Positions 25,979 to 30,568 of a stretch of DNA of 33,641 bases are shown here, piece after piece. The notes under the pieces were generated by a model. That model was not told the origin of the DNA. It worked only from the letters and a program-made list of their open reading frames with translations, and ran no database searches. Made by a program: the position numbers and the translations under genes. The stretch is from IMG/VR virus record IMGVR_UViG_3300035703_000282, positions 1 through 33,641 of that record; one strand, 5' to 3'. How positions within the stretch are numbered: position 1 is the first letter of the stretch; every line of letters begins with the position of its first letter. This DNA is from a virus.

Positions 25979-26129
25979 GGATCGACCACTCCTTAAACGC
26001 TTTGTGCTTTGCCATTGTGTCTGGGCACTCGGTTGATGGAGGTATCCAGCCGTGTTCTCTCCAGATCTCCTCGACAAGCCTGAAGCGTTCTTTCCTCGTC
26101 TGAGTCTTGATTAAGTCTTGCCAACTCAT
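25944..26129 (-). CDS. Small early protein
   Basis: A 61-residue charged protein (SWQDLIKTQTRKERFRLVEE onward) with no recognised domain. Its ATG overlaps the stop of the upstream gene (ATGA) and is preceded by GAAAGG six bases away, so translation from here is well supported. It ends inside the beginning of the last gene of the operon. Function unknown. Confidence 0.6.
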   Translation of the reverse strand: MSWQDLIKTQTRKERFRLVEEIWREHGWIPPSTECPDTMAKHKAFKEWSIRGLVDQPYQEG

Positions 26130-26383
26130 AGTAGGCCTTTCGGGAACGGATAGACTGCATCAGCGTGAGGAGTCCCAGGCCTCGGTGCATTGAAAAACCT
26201 CCTTTTGTCTAGTTCTGTAGGCTTCCAGAAACACTCCGGAGCCTCAGACTTGATGATGTAAATGATTCTCTCAAGTACGGGAGAGTCATCCGAAATGTTT
26301 GCAGGTCTTTTTGCAAACGCCTTTTTCAGCATGGTTTGGTGGTGTACGCTTAACATATCAAAATGGCACTGAATCGTCGTCAT
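26126..26383 (-). CDS. Small early protein with conserved-looking C-terminus
   Basis: An 85-residue protein from the ATG at 26383, or 76 residues from the ATG at 26356, which lies just past the previous stop. Neither has a good ribosome site. The C-terminal segment DKRRFFNAPRPGTPHADAVY then PFPKGLL is striking, basic and proline-rich, and probably the functional end. No domain is recognised. It lies between an SSB-like small protein and a small helical protein in the recombination operon. Confidence 0.55.
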   Translation of the reverse strand: MTTIQCHFDMLSVHHQTMLKKAFAKRPANISDDSPVLERIIYIIKSEAPECFWKPTELDKRRFFNAPRPGTPHADAVYPFPKGLL

Positions 26384-26579
26384 CGACTTTGGTTGATCTT
26401 ACTTCCCCGTCTTTCTGTTGAAACTTTAGGCCCAAATATTTCCCGTCGGAACCCTCGTTGATCCAGCCAGAGATCCAGTACTCGACCCCGTTAATCATTG
26501 CTGAACCTCGATAGTCTGGGTGCACATCCTTCTCCTTCTTCTTATTCTTGCTGATACTTCCTGTTAGTTCTTTTGGCAT
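26358..26579 (-). CDS. Small protein with SSB-like acidic C-terminal tail
   Basis: A 73-residue protein. The sequence GSISKNKKKEKDVHPDYRG, then MINGVEYWISGWINEGSDGK and YLGLKF, reads as a compact five-strand beta domain that could be a small OB fold. The C-terminus DDDDSVPF is very similar in character to the acidic tip of bacterial single-stranded-DNA-binding protein (DDDIPF), through which SSB recruits repair enzymes. It is coupled to the YqaJ exonuclease upstream by a 16-base overlap. A role in binding single-stranded DNA or docking on host SSB partners is inference, but the context is apt. It is much shorter than a standard SSB. Confidence 0.62.
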   Translation of the reverse strand: MPKELTGSISKNKKKEKDVHPDYRGSAMINGVEYWISGWINEGSDGKYLGLKFQQKDGEVRSTKVDDDDSVPF

Positions 26580-27160
26580 AGCTTTTCTACCATTTGAGTA
26601 ACTTCGTTGAGAAAGGCAACCAGATCAGCCTCGATCTTGGTTAGCTCTTCTGGCTTTGGCTCGTAACGTACGATAAATAACTGTAGATGTTCAGGAAGCC
26701 TTGGGTCGAACGAAACAAAGTCGCACCAAGTACGTCCTGTCACGAGCATTTGAGTGAGCATTTGTGGCTTGTATTTAGCGGGAACCTCCTTAGATAAAAG
26801 ATAATCGACATGGGTGTTTGAGTTGGGACACTTAATCTCGATCAGCCCTGAGCCTGCAAACCCGTCAGGAGACGCTCCAAGCCACTTTATCGACTTGTGA
26901 GTATGAAACCCTGTCTGCTCGACGAAATGCCCTGTGTGAACCTCGTAGGCTGCTCTGGCGACAGGTTCTTGCTCTGTACCCCATTGCATATAAGTATTTG
27001 TATAAGAATCGCTTTGTAAGCCAGTCAGACGCTCTGTAACGAGTTGAATCTGATAGTTCCTGCGTGTAGCCGTTCCTGCCTTTGCAAGCGCGTCTGAGGC
27101 CCGTGAAGCGGTTAGGTGGCCTAACCTCGCCTTGTACCAATCGTCAGATCTTTGTTCCAT
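26564..27160 (-). CDS. YqaJ-type recombination exonuclease
   Basis: Lambda-exonuclease-like nuclease that degrades one strand of a DNA end so that the annealing protein can act. The 198 residues contain the PD-(D/E)XK core GASPDGF...LIEIKCP, giving D99, E108 and K110. The N-terminal helix EQRSDDWYKARLGHLTASRA is the family's opening motif, and WGTEQEPVARAAYE carries another conserved Glu. It pairs functionally with the Sak-type protein upstream in the same operon. AAAGGTG lies before the ATG. The gene overlaps the YbcO-like gene by 17 bases. Confidence 0.9.
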   Translation of the reverse strand: MEQRSDDWYKARLGHLTASRASDALAKAGTATRRNYQIQLVTERLTGLQSDSYTNTYMQWGTEQEPVARAAYEVHTGHFVEQTGFHTHKSIKWLGASPDGFAGSGLIEIKCPNSNTHVDYLLSKEVPAKYKPQMLTQMLVTGRTWCDFVSFDPRLPEHLQLFIVRYEPKPEELTKIEADLVAFLNEVTQMVEKLCQKN

Positions 27161-27437
27161 TTTGCACCTTTAGCCATCCTCGTTCGATCATTGTTTGCAT
27201 CGTGTTTATGTACGCTTGGTTCCAGAAGTCTCGACGTTCCTCACGAGACATGTCTTTCCCCTGATCCAAGTATGTATGACAACGAAAGCATAGGGATGCT
27301 ACTAAAGCATCAGATACCTTGATTCCCATGCCTTTGCCTTGGTTTCGGTGAGCAGCGACTACTGTCCCATCCTCTGCAAAGCATGACCCGCAAGGGATGT
27401 ATCTACAAGCCTCAAGTAGTTTTTTGTTTGTGTACAT
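27144..27437 (-). CDS. YbcO/DUF1364-like putative nuclease
   Basis: A 97-residue protein matching the YbcO family of small HNH-fold phage nucleases. It begins NKKLLEACRYIPCGSC, continues VVAAHRNQGKGMGIKVSDAL and then ASLCFRCHTYLDQG. Two cysteine pairs (CGSC and CFRC) and the AHRN and CH segments provide metal-binding and catalytic candidates. Members usually sit among recombination genes, as here between NinB and YqaJ. AAGGAAG precedes the ATG by four bases. It overlaps NinB by 26 bases. DNA cleavage activity is inferred from the family. Confidence 0.82.
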   Translation of the reverse strand: MYTNKKLLEACRYIPCGSCFAEDGTVVAAHRNQGKGMGIKVSDALVASLCFRCHTYLDQGKDMSREERRDFWNQAYINTMQTMIERGWLKVQNGTKI

Positions 27438-27831
27438 TTATCTTCCTTAGATCAAGTTCAGCGTCTTTCATCTCATCCGTCCAGACCAAGCCCTTCTCTA
27501 ATGCGTACTGTAAAAGTTGCTCCACCATGTCCGAGAACTCCGAAACCGTAAGCGAAGCAGTGGAAGGCTCGATCTCTTTTACCTGACCTCCAGGGAGTTC
27601 GACGACACGAGAAGGTAAAAACCTCGTCTTAGCCCACTCGTGCCAGATGTCCTGGGTGTACTGCTGGCCCATTAACTGTTCCGCACAAGCTGTCAGGATC
27701 GACCAATAGAATCGATTCTGGGCGGCTGTGCGAGGAGGTTTAGTAATAGTTACCATGTAGCCTAGTTCCGTGGCTTCTATGGCCTCTATGACCCTCCTGC
27801 GGTCATTCTCAGTTGTTAGGATTGATCTCAT
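27412..27831 (-). CDS. ninB: NinB-type recombination protein
   Basis: A 139-residue protein of the NinB (lambda Orf) family, which binds single-stranded DNA and helps load recombination proteins, replacing host RecF/RecO/RecR functions. Matching features are the TITKPPRTAAQNRFYWSIL segment, in which the R-T-x-x-Q-N is diagnostic, the WHEWAKTRFLPSR region, and STASLTVSEFSDMVEQLLQY near the C-terminus. The start overlaps the previous gene by 23 bases; its ribosome site is weak. It sits in a complete recombination operon. Confidence 0.88.
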   Translation of the reverse strand: MRSILTTENDRRRVIEAIEATELGYMVTITKPPRTAAQNRFYWSILTACAEQLMGQQYTQDIWHEWAKTRFLPSRVVELPGGQVKEIEPSTASLTVSEFSDMVEQLLQYALEKGLVWTDEMKDAELDLRKINVHKQKTT

Positions 27832-28162
27832 TTCTTAGATACCAGTTGTAGTTTGCTCGAAAGGCTCGTCTCTCGAAGTCAGTAAACTTATCGTGACGAT
27901 CAGCAAACATAGCCTCGACCATGCGCCTCTTGAATTGTTTACCGTCAACGTCAAGCCACATCAGATAATTGTCGAGCCCAGACTCGTGGAGGTCTCCGAA
28001 TAGAAACCGCATGGCTGTGATCGTGTCGTCTTGAGGTCTAGTTTTGTAAGGCGCTTTGCAGGCGTCATCGACTGCTAGTTGGATGACAGACCAGAGCAGT
28101 TTCTTGCAACGCTCGGTCTGGATTGAATCCAGCAGTCCTTCTTCAAATGTGTGTAGGTTCAT
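27809..28162 (-). CDS. Conserved early protein of unknown function
   Basis: A 117-residue helical protein. Notable stretches are KLLWSVIQLAVDDACKAPY, then ITAMRFLFGDLHESGLDNYL and FERRAFRANYNWYLRNEINP. It resembles hypothetical proteins found upstream of NinB in several phages, but I cannot name a function. The ATG overlaps the winged-helix gene's stop (ATGA), so it is coupled to it. Confidence 0.65.
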   Translation of the reverse strand: MNLHTFEEGLLDSIQTERCKKLLWSVIQLAVDDACKAPYKTRPQDDTITAMRFLFGDLHESGLDNYLMWLDVDGKQFKRRMVEAMFADRHDKFTDFERRAFRANYNWYLRNEINPNN

Positions 28163-28461
28163 TTTCGTTTGTAGTAGTAAGCCCAGGCTTGCCTGTAGAG
28201 TTTTTCTTTCGTAACCAACTTGCGAGCCTCTAGTGCGCGAATCATCTTCAAGGCATTTTGTGGTGTGCAGCCGAACTTGTTTGCCAAATCGTTAAGCGAC
28301 ATCCAATCATCGAGTGCTGCCAAGTAAGCCTTTTGTGTCGGTGTTAGCGGTTTGGACTTGTTAAGCATCAACCGGCCAAACTTTTCCACCGACTTTAGGA
28401 ACTCACCTCGGTGAGAGATGAGCACCCCTGATCGTTTAGCGGCATCAAGAATCTGACTCAT
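28159..28461 (-). CDS. Winged helix-turn-helix protein (paralogue A)
   Basis: A 100-residue probable DNA-binding protein. The segment KPLTPTQKAYLAALDDWMSL, then NDLANKFGCTPQNALKMIR and ALEARKLVTKEK, is a winged HTH: helix, recognition helix after FGCT, then the wing, ending AWAYYYKRK. It is clearly related to the gene at 32107-32421, which shares KPLT-T, SL..L...FGCT..-A-K and AWA-YY-RK. The two lie on opposite strands in the two early operons. It is coupled by ATGA to both neighbours. Possibly a regulator; the target is unknown. Confidence 0.75.
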   Translation of the reverse strand: MSQILDAAKRSGVLISHRGEFLKSVEKFGRLMLNKSKPLTPTQKAYLAALDDWMSLNDLANKFGCTPQNALKMIRALEARKLVTKEKLYRQAWAYYYKRK

Positions 28462-28988
28462 TTAATCTCCGTGAGTTCTTTCTTGCGTTGTTCTTTGGCT
28501 GCGTCCAGTTGCTTGATAGCCTCAGGATTGTTCTTTAGAGCTTTGTAAGCTGTCGTGAAGGCTTGTTTTAGATCTTCCATGTTCCCAGCCTCGCTCACAA
28601 TCTTGAGGTGGTCTGCTGGATCTTCCTTGGCTTCTTCCGGCAGATCTTCTCCTGCGTAGATGTAGAGCCCGATACCGTGCAGGCTGATAGCCTTGGCTAA
28701 ACATCTCTGCATAGCCGTGTTGACTGCAAACGCATCTGGGTTAGGGATTGCTTTGTTCTTGTAGTCCATGACCGGCAGTTGTGCAGTGCGAGATACGCCA
28801 AATGCTTTGACCTCGCAGAACACCATTACGGTGTCATTCCACACTTGATGAGGTTTGTACTCCCAGGTTGCATTAGGATCGTGTTGCAACAATGTATCTA
28901 CAGCCCATGCCCAGGAGAGATAAGAAAGTCCGTTTTTCTTCTCGACCTTCTCGGTTACGTTGATCTTTCTGAGTTCGTTGAATTTCAT
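28458..28988 (-). CDS. Sak/DUF1071-type single-strand annealing protein
   Basis: Recombinase that anneals complementary single strands, partner of the YqaJ exonuclease. The 176-residue protein matches the DUF1071 (Sak-type) family: KFNELRKINVTEKVEKKNGL, then SYLSWAWAVDTLLQ, LPVMDYKNKAIPNPDAFAVN and ISLHGIGLYIYAGEDLPEEA. The C-terminal 40 residues are charged and helical. I chose the ATG at 28988, which has CGGAG six bases before it. An ATG at 29054 would run through the small membrane-peptide gene upstream and is probably not used. The stop overlaps the winged-helix gene's start. Confidence 0.88.
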   Translation of the reverse strand: MKFNELRKINVTEKVEKKNGLSYLSWAWAVDTLLQHDPNATWEYKPHQVWNDTVMVFCEVKAFGVSRTAQLPVMDYKNKAIPNPDAFAVNTAMQRCLAKAISLHGIGLYIYAGEDLPEEAKEDPADHLKIVSEAGNMEDLKQAFTTAYKALKNNPEAIKQLDAAKEQRKKELTEIK

Positions 28989-28999
28989 AATCGGCTCCG

Positions 29000-29092
29000 T
29001 TACTTTATGAACAGGAAGAGCAGTGTTCCGTAGCAAATCCCCAATAGCGCGCATAGTGCCCAGTCACTCCTCGTTATTTTGTACTTGGTCAA
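29000..29092 (-). CDS. Tiny single-pass membrane peptide, TTG start
   Basis: A 30-residue frame with a TTG start at 29092, supported by AGGA eight bases upstream. The N-terminus is basic (TKYKITRSDW), followed by an uninterrupted hydrophobic helix (ALCALLGICYGTLLFLF) and IK at the end. Its TAA stops 11 bases before the Sak ATG, leaving exactly the room for the Sak ribosome site. It overlaps the 44-residue frame upstream by 29 bases. The basic N-terminus plus one transmembrane helix fits a small phage membrane peptide. Function unknown; alternatively the frame is accidental. Confidence 0.55.
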   Translation of the reverse strand: MTKYKITRSDWALCALLGICYGTLLFLFIK

Positions 29093-29198
29093 GTTCGTAT
29101 TCCTGTTGTTCCAACTGTTGTTGATAGTCATCTTGTTCCCTCTCTCTGTCGTATCTGTAAAGTTCTCTGTCTAGCCACCAATCGTAGTCAACGCTCAT
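29064..29198 (-). CDS. Tiny acidic Gln/Tyr-rich protein
   Basis: A 44-residue frame: SVDYDWWLDRELYRYDRERE followed by a Gln/Glu-rich helix ending in NNEE. The ATG overlaps the stop of the 47-residue gene upstream (ATGA) and has AAGGGA six bases before it. Charged-residue content is extreme (about half Asp, Glu, Arg or Lys), as in small phage proteins that bind host enzymes or mimic nucleic acid. That function is speculation. Ribosome site and coupling make translation likely. Confidence 0.6.
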   Translation of the reverse strand: MSVDYDWWLDRELYRYDREREQDDYQQQLEQQEYELDQVQNNEE

Positions 29199-29338
29199 TG
29201 GAGTTCCCTTGTGTAGATGGTGCAGAACTGTTCTACGTTAGCTGCAAATACAATCTCGTTGATCTTGATGTTGTAGTCGTTGTCGAAGTATTCCTTGAGG
29301 ATTTTTTCTAGCTGCTCTTGTGTGAGTATGATTTTCAT
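29195..29338 (-). CDS. Tiny protein, first gene of the minus early operon
   Basis: A 47-residue frame: KIILTQEQLEKILKEYFDN followed by DYNIKINEIVFAANVEQF. AAGGAG lies five bases before the ATG at 29338, one of the best ribosome sites in this strand. It reads as an N-terminal helix followed by strands. No family recognised. As first gene of the operon it should be expressed early. The 59 bases between it and the divergent GTG at 29398 should contain the operon's promoter; I see no convincing sigma-70 match for this direction. Confidence 0.62.
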   Translation of the reverse strand: MKIILTQEQLEKILKEYFDNDYNIKINEIVFAANVEQFCTIYTRELQ

Positions 29339-29397
29339 GTTGGCTCCTTGTTGTGATGGAGTAATCTTAGGCTTATCAACTACTAAAGACTGTCATC

Positions 29398-29751
29398 GTG
29401 ACGACAATCTCTGCCGCTGATACCAAAAAGAAACGCCGTTCGTCGGTAAGTCCTACTCAGCGATCCTTAGCTGCACTGCGCGAGCGCGGGTATCTCTGCC
29501 AGATCGTCGAGCACTGGAACCCGTGGGCTCGTATACGCCAGGACTTGTTTGGGATAGGCGACATCCTTTGTCTTAAAGACGAGGAGACGCTCCTGGTACA
29601 GACAACGAGCAGAGGTAACGTATCAGCCAGGGTAAAGAAGATTGCAGAGAGTGAGCATCTTCCAGCTATCTTGAGGGCAGGCTGGAAAATCGAGGTGCAC
29701 GGATGGGCTAAGTTAAAAGAGGGCTGGACTTGCAAGGTTGTGGAGATGTGA
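29398..29751 (+). CDS. Possible PD-(D/E)XK-like nuclease-fold protein
   Basis: A 117-residue protein divergent from the recombination operon. After a basic N-terminus (KKKRRSS) comes a helix (TQRSLAALRERGYLCQIVEH), then QDLFGIGDILCLKDEETLLV and QTTSRGNVSARVKKI. The D55...L66-V-Q68 arrangement and the helix after it resemble the compact nuclease-resolvase fold. In place of E-x-K it has V-Q-T, so it may be inactive or use another residue. The start is GTG at 29398 without a clear ribosome site. A weak promoter-like pair (TTGTGA at 29351, TATCAA at 29374, spacing 17) would give a very short leader. A long hairpin terminator follows. Confidence 0.6.
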   Translation: MTTISAADTKKKRRSSVSPTQRSLAALRERGYLCQIVEHWNPWARIRQDLFGIGDILCLKDEETLLVQTTSRGNVSARVKKIAESEHLPAILRAGWKIEVHGWAKLKEGWTCKVVEM

Positions 29752-29756
29752 TACGA

Positions 29757-29786
29757 TTGACTTGTCTGTGTGGAAGCAGATGTAAG
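29757..29786 (+). promoter_or_regulatory. Possible sigma-70 promoter ahead of the hairpin region
   Basis: TTGACT (29757-29762, five of six matches to the -35 consensus) is followed after 18 bases by TGTAAG (29781-29786, four of six to the -10). Transcription would begin near 29793, inside the 5' arm of the long hairpin. This could express the non-coding region or the downstream early operon, or it may be chance. Confidence 0.3.
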
Positions 29787-29862
29787 CCGTTAGGAATGTG
29801 CCCTGCCCCTTGCTCCTGAGGGGGCTTCCACCAGGGTACATCCTTAACGGCTTTTTCTTTTT
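29784..29862 (+). terminator. Long hairpin followed by T-rich run
   Basis: Bases 29784-29805 pair with 29832-29853: 22 pairs with two G-U wobbles and one A-C mismatch. A small inner hairpin, CCCCT (29806-29810) with AGGGG (29819-29823), sits at the tip, leaving an eight-base bulge GCTTCCAC (29824-29831). CTTTTTCTTTTTC follows at 29851-29863, so it reads as an intrinsic terminator for the gene at 29398-29751. The stem is far longer than a simple terminator needs. The bulge is perfectly complementary to GTGGAAGC at 29770-29777, just upstream. Confidence 0.75.
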
Positions 29863-29865
29863 CTA

Positions 29866-30205
29866 CCAGACCGTACTCCGAGCGTTATTAAGAACCTGCA
29901 TGGGTTGCGCGGAAGTAAACACCGGCTGGCGATACACCCCGTTTCATGCCGATCCAGACTGTCAGTGAGGTACTGGACTAAGCCTCTTGTACATGGGTGG
30001 GACAAGCAAGAGGTGGAGAGAATCGCTGGCTTAGGCTGTACTAGGCAGGGAACATCCAGAAGAGACCCCTGCTGGGTAAGGTGAGTGCTACCACCCTTGG
30101 GGAAGTTATGTCTCAAGAAAAGAGAAGTAGAAGATTGTCAACAGAACGACAGTCAACAACAAAAATAAGGTTTACATTGAGATTTCCTAACAACAGGAGA
30201 AAACA
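29866..30205 (+). other. Non-coding interval with candidate structured RNA
   Basis: About 340 bases without a credible gene. Visible pairings are CTAAGCC (29978-29984) with GGCTTAG (30028-30034), extended by GTAC (29970-29973) with GTAC (30038-30041); CTTG-containing TCTTG (29985-29989) with CAAGA (30007-30011) inside it; GCAGGG (30045-30050) with CCCTGC (30067-30072); and GCATG (29898-29902) with CATGC (29945-29949). Together these could make a branched RNA. Near the end, GTCAACA occurs twice 15 bases apart (30137 and 30152), possibly regulator sites before the next operon. The remainder shows nothing further. I do not recognise a known RNA family. Confidence 0.35.
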
Positions 30206-30568
30206 ATGTTCGAGGAGTTCTGGAGCAAATACCCAAGAAAGGTCGCTAAACGTGCTGCACAGAAAGCATGGGCCAAACTATCGCCGCAAGAGCAAAAGTC
30301 TGCTGTAGAGGCTCTGGCGACGCACAACAGGTACTACCAAGTGAAGGGTACGGGGCATGAGTTCATCCCGCATCCTGCTACATGGTTGAACCAGGGAAGA
30401 TGGGAGGACGAACTAGAGATCGCTCCTCCACAGGAGAAGGTGGCTGTGTGGTGGGCTACAGAGAAAGGAACTGCTGAGATGGCAGAGAAGGTGGGCTGTC
30501 CTGCAAGACCAGGAGAGGATTGGAACTCTTGGAAGGCAAGGATCTCAGAGAAAGCGAGGGCAGCGTGA
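30206..30568 (+). CDS. Small replication-type protein (YPRKV / HPATWLN motif)
   Basis: A 120-residue protein. FEEFWSKYPRKVAKRAAQKA then FIPHPATWLNQGRWEDE are marks of a domain often found at the C-terminus of phage replication-initiation or helicase-loader proteins. Here it stands alone, with a C-terminal extension (CPARPGEDWNSWKARISEKA). AGGAG lies six bases before the ATG. It heads the plus-strand early operon. It may act with host replication proteins; no ATPase or DNA-binding motif is visible. Confidence 0.65.
   Translation: MFEEFWSKYPRKVAKRAAQKAWAKLSPQEQKSAVEALATHNRYYQVKGTGHEFIPHPATWLNQGRWEDELEIAPPQEKVAVWWATEKGTAEMAEKVGCPARPGEDWNSWKARISEKARAA

Follow-up and report, generated by a model that had tools for sequence, protein, structure and literature searches.

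Three small genes, two of them sharing 68 nt, precede a Sak-type annealase gene in a group of related phages

We report that three short reading frames, genes A, B and C, which lie upstream of the gene for a Sak single-strand annealing protein in an IMG/VR virus record, are almost certainly genuine protein-coding genes that are under selection and kept in dozens of related phages. Comparison of these phages indicates that B and C form a constant pair ahead of the annealase gene, unlike the slot occupied by A, which behaves as a cassette site for swappable small genes. Specifically, our sequence data suggest that B and C are most likely accessory to the annealase module, and that A, the variability of whose slot fits a host-interaction gene, is most likely an interchangeable gene of that kind.

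Methods

The window, i.e. the whole stretch of DNA analysed, comprises positions 1-33,641 (33,641 nt) of the IMG/VR record IMGVR_UViG_3300035703_000282, in which genes A, B and C are located on the minus strand (Table 1). IMG/VR was scanned with Sak as query, which gave 80 loci, and with alignment queries for C, A and B, for which 139, 92 and 164 related stretches, respectively, were reported. The dN/dS values are mean pairwise Nei-Gojobori counts, and the membrane topology of C was derived from charge and hydropathy only.

Table 1. Features of the locus and the gene types found in slot A
Feature	Coordinates	Strand	Description
Rest of recombination operon	25993..28461	-	winged-helix/O-like, unknown, NinB/Orf, HNH, RecE/YqaJ-type exonuclease, SSB, two unknowns
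sak	28458..28988	-	single-strand annealing protein, 176 aa; PF06378 E=3e-42, phrog_659 E=6e-45
In-frame upstream extension of Sak	28989..29054	-	ATG 29054, runs through gene C; probably not used
Gene C	29000..29131	-	43 aa from ATG; carries an NSWNNR motif, a basic stretch and a single predicted transmembrane helix in which GxxxG is invariant
TTG version of C	29000..29092	-	30 aa; rejected start
Gene C ribosome site GAGAGGGA	29137..29144	-	conserved; within gene B
B/C overlap	29064..29131	-	68 nt, different frames; purifying selection in both
Gene B	29064..29198	-	44 aa; strongly acidic (net charge -11); YDWWLD motif at the N-terminus
Gene B Shine-Dalgarno AAGGGA	29205..29210	-	ATGA overlap of B with gene A at 29195-29198
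Gene A	29195..29338	-	47 aa, starts MKIILTQEQLEKILKEYF...; exchangeable slot; predicted helix and beta-hairpin
Gene A Shine-Dalgarno AAGGAG	29344..29349	-	5 nt before ATG; inside leader common to unrelated slot-A genes
Palindrome TGTCATCGTGACGACA	29391..29406	.	16 bp, between divergent operons; putative operator
Slot-A type 1			A-family genes, 47-56 aa
Slot-A type 2			MDVQIKTADYEKL.. genes, 56 aa
Slot-A type 3			MKVHISHVVKAIEVL../MSIKISEIV.. genes, 62-63 aa

Results

The window as a whole holds 229 open reading frames of at least 40 aa, so the length of a frame together with a Shine-Dalgarno sequence is little proof of a gene. That A, B and C are coding genes follows from the conservation of the frames in 86 distinct B-C haplotypes and from dN/dS ratios well below 1; these are 0.38 for A (41 distinct homologous sequences), 0.21 for B and 0.27 for C (both outside the overlap) and 0.15 for Sak. 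The order slot A-B-C-annealase is kept without exception across 308 partly redundant IMG/VR loci. C is present in all 67 loci in which Sak is at least 64% identical (L002-L068), as is B where the contig is long enough, and B and C both occur, in the same order, in every relative whose Sak is at least 69% identical and whose upstream sequence is long enough; a short C was also present in L073 in the IMG/VR locus comparison. Within this clade there are no stops or frameshifts in the three frames where Sak is kept. The proposal that hidden small genes head the recombination operon is supported by this conservation, selection and constant order, and the lengths, Shine-Dalgarno sequences and mutual ATGA overlap predicted for A and B agree with what we find.

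None of the three proteins matched a family in PHROGs, Pfam or NCBIfam (for A, B and C, best PHROG E values 0.012, 0.31 and 0.14, respectively; nothing above the Pfam cut-off), tblastn of the three against named phages gave no match (low-complexity filtering may mask B), and a scan of genome contigs with C returned zero relatives. The three families are absent from the distant Sak phages L069-L072 and L074-L081 and from named phages (Venkman, MW202691), so that Sak in itself does not depend on them.

The third gene had been placed at TTG 29092. In relatives, ATG or GTG is kept at the position corresponding to ATG 29131, which is preceded by GAGAGGGAACAAG in this phage and by GAGAGGGAACAA or a close variant in the relatives, and where a 6-nt deletion is present the start shifts together with the ribosome motif. 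At the position of the TTG some relatives have TTA or CTG, and it was rejected as the start of C. Since ATG/GTG and the ribosome site are kept and TTG is not, C starts at 29131 and overlaps B by 68 nt, and the start and length first predicted have to be replaced; the basic N-terminus and single hydrophobic helix stand, as does the distance of 11 nt from the stop codon to the Sak start ATG 28988. Of 69 loci, 57 have this same distance, and the others have one of 2-9 nt. In the part of C outside the overlap, the third codon position is variable at 14 of 21 sites compared with 4 of 20 at each of the other two.

Inside the overlap the synonymous divergence is lower than outside, dropping from 0.465 to 0.317 for B and from 0.42 to 0.24 for C, and pN/pS in the C frame is 0.63, as compared to simulated values of 1.64 with B alone constrained and 0.49 with both frames constrained. 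The reduced synonymous divergence, together with a pN/pS near the value for two coding frames, shows that both frames are used, i.e. that the 68 nt encode two proteins, with C starting inside B. With Prodigal-type gene callers, a same-strand overlap of 68 nt and a competing longer start of the downstream gene would each tend to suppress C. C is hidden by this overlap and by the longer in-frame Sak start at 29054 more than by its length, and the locus illustrates how such a gene can be lost; that the genes are too short for ordinary gene finders was an overstatement, as 50-59 aa frames upstream of sak carry annotation in deposited phages.

C has the features of a single-pass membrane mini-protein, with one hydrophobic helix of approximately 19 residues between charged flanks (insertion predicted). 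Its Kyte-Doolittle hydropathy is 2.23 over residues 24-42 (19-residue window), and a helix is predicted with high pLDDT for residues 21-42. Even among members that are 37-67% identical, the residues W, LG, G, L and F are invariant, with LGxxxG in the helix. Distant homologues of C, down to a form of 25 aa (MRKIEWLAYIALGMFYGVLMFLFVR), are positioned directly 5' of an ERF annealase gene instead of sak.

Slot A contains at least three unrelated families of small proteins (Table 1) behind one leader (..acaacaaggagccaac) and ahead of one B gene, and in a few relatives two slot-A genes are present in tandem. When mapped on a tree built from 89 Sak haplotypes, the slot-A type switches 31 times, as compared to 29.4 times with shuffled labels, and is thus distributed independently of Sak phylogeny. 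In several relatives a further gene is present upstream of A, in some together with a ggggcttcggcccc hairpin, and A is therefore the first gene of the operon in this phage, as predicted, though other members of the group differ. The ggggcttcggcccc hairpin is found in L163, L100, L153, L178 and L147 just 5' of the A ribosome site and just 3' of another gene, and is possibly a border motif of cassettes in an accessory block. The AlphaFold model of A (pLDDT 87.7) has the helix and beta-hairpin fold given in Table 1. Fold searches gave no structural homologue of A with known function: there were zero matches at E <1 in the PDB, and the top matches in a viral library were uncharacterised phage proteins only, at E 0.035 or worse. 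An annotated 59-aa protein before sak in MW202710 is a weak candidate relative of A (hhalign probability 57 over 22 residues), for which the HMM search was without a hit.

The Sak protein scores 144 bits against PF06378, exceeding the gathering score of 22.3. C precedes two annealase families, Sak and, in other phages, ERF (PF04404 E=6e-26 and 91.6 bits in L309, E=2e-22 and 80.3 bits in L343; cut-off 25), and near-identical translations to these ERF cases are present in L311, L314-L316, L318-L320 and others. Between L317 (Sak) and L319 (ERF), identity is 95% as far as the final bases ahead of the Sak start; the cores have no detectable similarity, and identity is then 75% over the C-terminal tail and 95% past it. 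For L310 and L313, identity is 86% as far as a border within C, followed by approximately 450 nt without a match and then 96% identity. These alignments show that Sak and ERF cores are exchanged between conserved flanks. Moreover, the C-terminal 59 residues of the ERF annealase at 3066-3767 in L309 are 56% identical to the tail of the present Sak, and the same applies to L311; judged by their sequences, such ERFs with a Sak-like tail are chimeric annealases with exchanged cores.

Among the distant Sak phages, L074-L076, L079 and L081 have unrelated single-helix membrane-type proteins 5' of sak, and L069-L072 have very basic 35-aa proteins at the upstream position, so that small proteins of hydrophobic or charged character recur at this place. 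Upstream of sak in L074-L081 the unrelated membrane-type proteins, of 27-41 aa, are followed by a protein of approximately 93-98 aa starting MNKYDxWLE, which echoes the YDWWLD motif of B.

The label "recombination operon" in the original prediction is right given the winged-helix/O-like, NinB/Orf, HNH nuclease, exonuclease and SSB genes downstream of sak; that the operon is "early" is unsupported, as scans of 28900-30300 for sigma-70 promoters and for terminators were both empty. The RNA at the sak ribosome site folds less stably than all 200 shuffled sequences (z +2.6), and hairpin-based translational coupling from C to sak is unsupported with a site this unusually unstructured. At related loci the palindrome between the divergent operons is present in either orientation, also as variants (TGTCGTCACGATGACA, TGTCATTACGGCGACA and TGTCATCGCGGCGACA) in which the dyad is largely kept, and it may therefore be an operator. 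The gene after sak (28159-28461) has a weak winged-helix/MarR signal (E=4e-4, under the Pfam cut-off) and could encode a regulator acting on the palindrome. The divergent gene at 29398-29751 encodes a protein of 117 aa without a family match in PHROGs, Pfam, PADLOC or NCBIfam; its GIGDIL..ETLLVQTTSRGN segment gives us the impression, and only that, of nuclease folds, and homologues are present at the same place in the distant loci L309 (2116-2466) and L343 (2286-2600). Between this gene and a replication-initiation-like gene at 30206 there are approximately 450 bp (29750-30200) with no obvious gene, which may hold regulatory or origin sequence.

Discussion

Annealases drive phage mosaicism, yet their small companions are almost unstudied. 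As a functional model, to which we give an even chance, the head of the operon would serve the annealase module as an accessory platform. C would insert into the membrane as an N-in single-pass mini-protein and dimerise, probably via GxxxG, and its short cytoplasmic NSWNNR/basic tail would stay close to the recombination machinery of the phage or to a membrane-bound enzyme of the host. B would act as a small acidic partner, possibly of a DNA-mimic type like that proposed for P22 Arf, and A would be an exchangeable host-interaction protein with a role in counter-defence or host modulation. Through a presumed interaction with Sak or ERF, the three would aid the annealase module in a given host and would not anneal DNA themselves. 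Against this model, a gene neighbourhood can persist without functional interaction, and C, lying at a recombination boundary (cf. the L310/L313 border), could be retained by the mechanics of exchange. Moreover, as the distant and named Sak phages lack A, B and C, a helper of this kind is not generally needed. A more far-reaching version, which we consider unlikely, is that C founds a family of membrane-anchored annealase partners kept across the Sak/ERF exchange and, with the dual-coded acidic B, tethers recombination to the membrane or shields the annealase from membrane-associated defence, slot A providing a host-matched counter-defence protein.

It is possible, although we find it doubtful, that A, B and C instead hit host targets early in infection (e.g. 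FtsH, cell division or abortive-infection sensors) and that their adjacency to sak reflects shared early expression only. The free swapping in slot A is as expected of arms-race genes, P22 c3 and kil hold the same place (annotated in the P22 record as putative FtsH inhibitor and septation inhibitor, respectively), and annealases are themselves targeted by phage defence (PMC8093625; PMC11846896). However, B and C are not swappable but constant companions of the annealase, the hits to defence models were weak and partial only (in a library without anti-defence families), and the promoter scan recognised none. The host-takeover idea fits A best.

That C serves mainly as a translational leader, with translation across the B-C-sak junctions setting the expression of Sak and the peptide sequence being of little weight, would account for the tight packing (the A/B ATGA, the B/C overlap, and the C stop mostly 11 nt from sak); we regard it as improbable given that purifying selection acts on the amino-acid sequence of C (dN/dS 0.27), in which W, LG, G, L and F do not vary, and that the sak ribosome site is not sequestered (z +2.6).

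Even less probable is that C is not a gene, the region being an N-terminal extension of Sak or ERF from ATG 29054 and the C frame being open by accident. No stop interrupts the extension frame in 33 haplotypes, and its pN/pS, at 0.85, falls between the values simulated for coding by C alone (1.25) and by both frames (0.48). The codon-position pattern and a pN/pS of 0.31 favour the C frame, however, a conserved start and a conserved ribosome site belong to C itself, and the Pfam Sak domain starts at residue 3 counted from the short start (28988). The extension as sole coding frame was rejected on the pN/pS values and the simulation, a weak extra constraint being possible; from the sequences, its use is unlikely. 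Finally, the idea that the three frames are open merely by chance, for which the many 40-50-codon frames in the window might speak, is refuted by the comparative data (frames kept in 86 haplotypes; dN/dS <0.4 for all three) and has next to no probability.

The locus offers natural experiments, in which Sak and ERF cores are swapped behind near-identical flanks and one leader precedes unrelated slot-A genes; these make the role of such tiny genes testable.

Comparison with known systems

The arrangement resembles c3-kil-arf-erf of P22, in which overlapping genes of approximately 50 codons likewise stand in a row directly before the annealase gene and arf overlaps erf by 4 nt (sequence record). 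P22 Arf stimulates recombination by Erf (record note; PMC9836394); its mechanism is uncharacterised and a DNA mimic has been suggested (PMC9836394). B is similar to Arf in size (44 and 47 aa) and has the same net charge of -11, but unlike arf it is one gene removed from the annealase gene, the adjoining gene being the basic C, and no membrane mini-protein resembling C adjoins erf in P22. Local alignment scores of A, B and C against P22 Arf, Kil and C3 were no better than those of shuffled controls.

Mosaic exchange and domain shuffling of phage annealases with shared C-terminal domains have been proposed (PMC8093625), and the replacement of Sak and ERF cores by each other, with C-terminal tail and flanks kept, is similar; what differs here is the 5' exchange border, which coincides with a conserved membrane mini-gene or falls within it. 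Conserved and overlooked frames of <50 codons in phage metagenomes were described by Fremin et al. 2022 (as cited in PMC11323111). A, B and C are typical of such genes in size and in having no annotation, and that catalogue may already list one or other of them; the present analysis deals with the B/C dual coding, the cassette slot and the linkage to the annealase. The locus is not deeply novel in kind; what is unusual is the combination of dual coding, a cassette slot and a membrane mini-protein linked to two annealase families.
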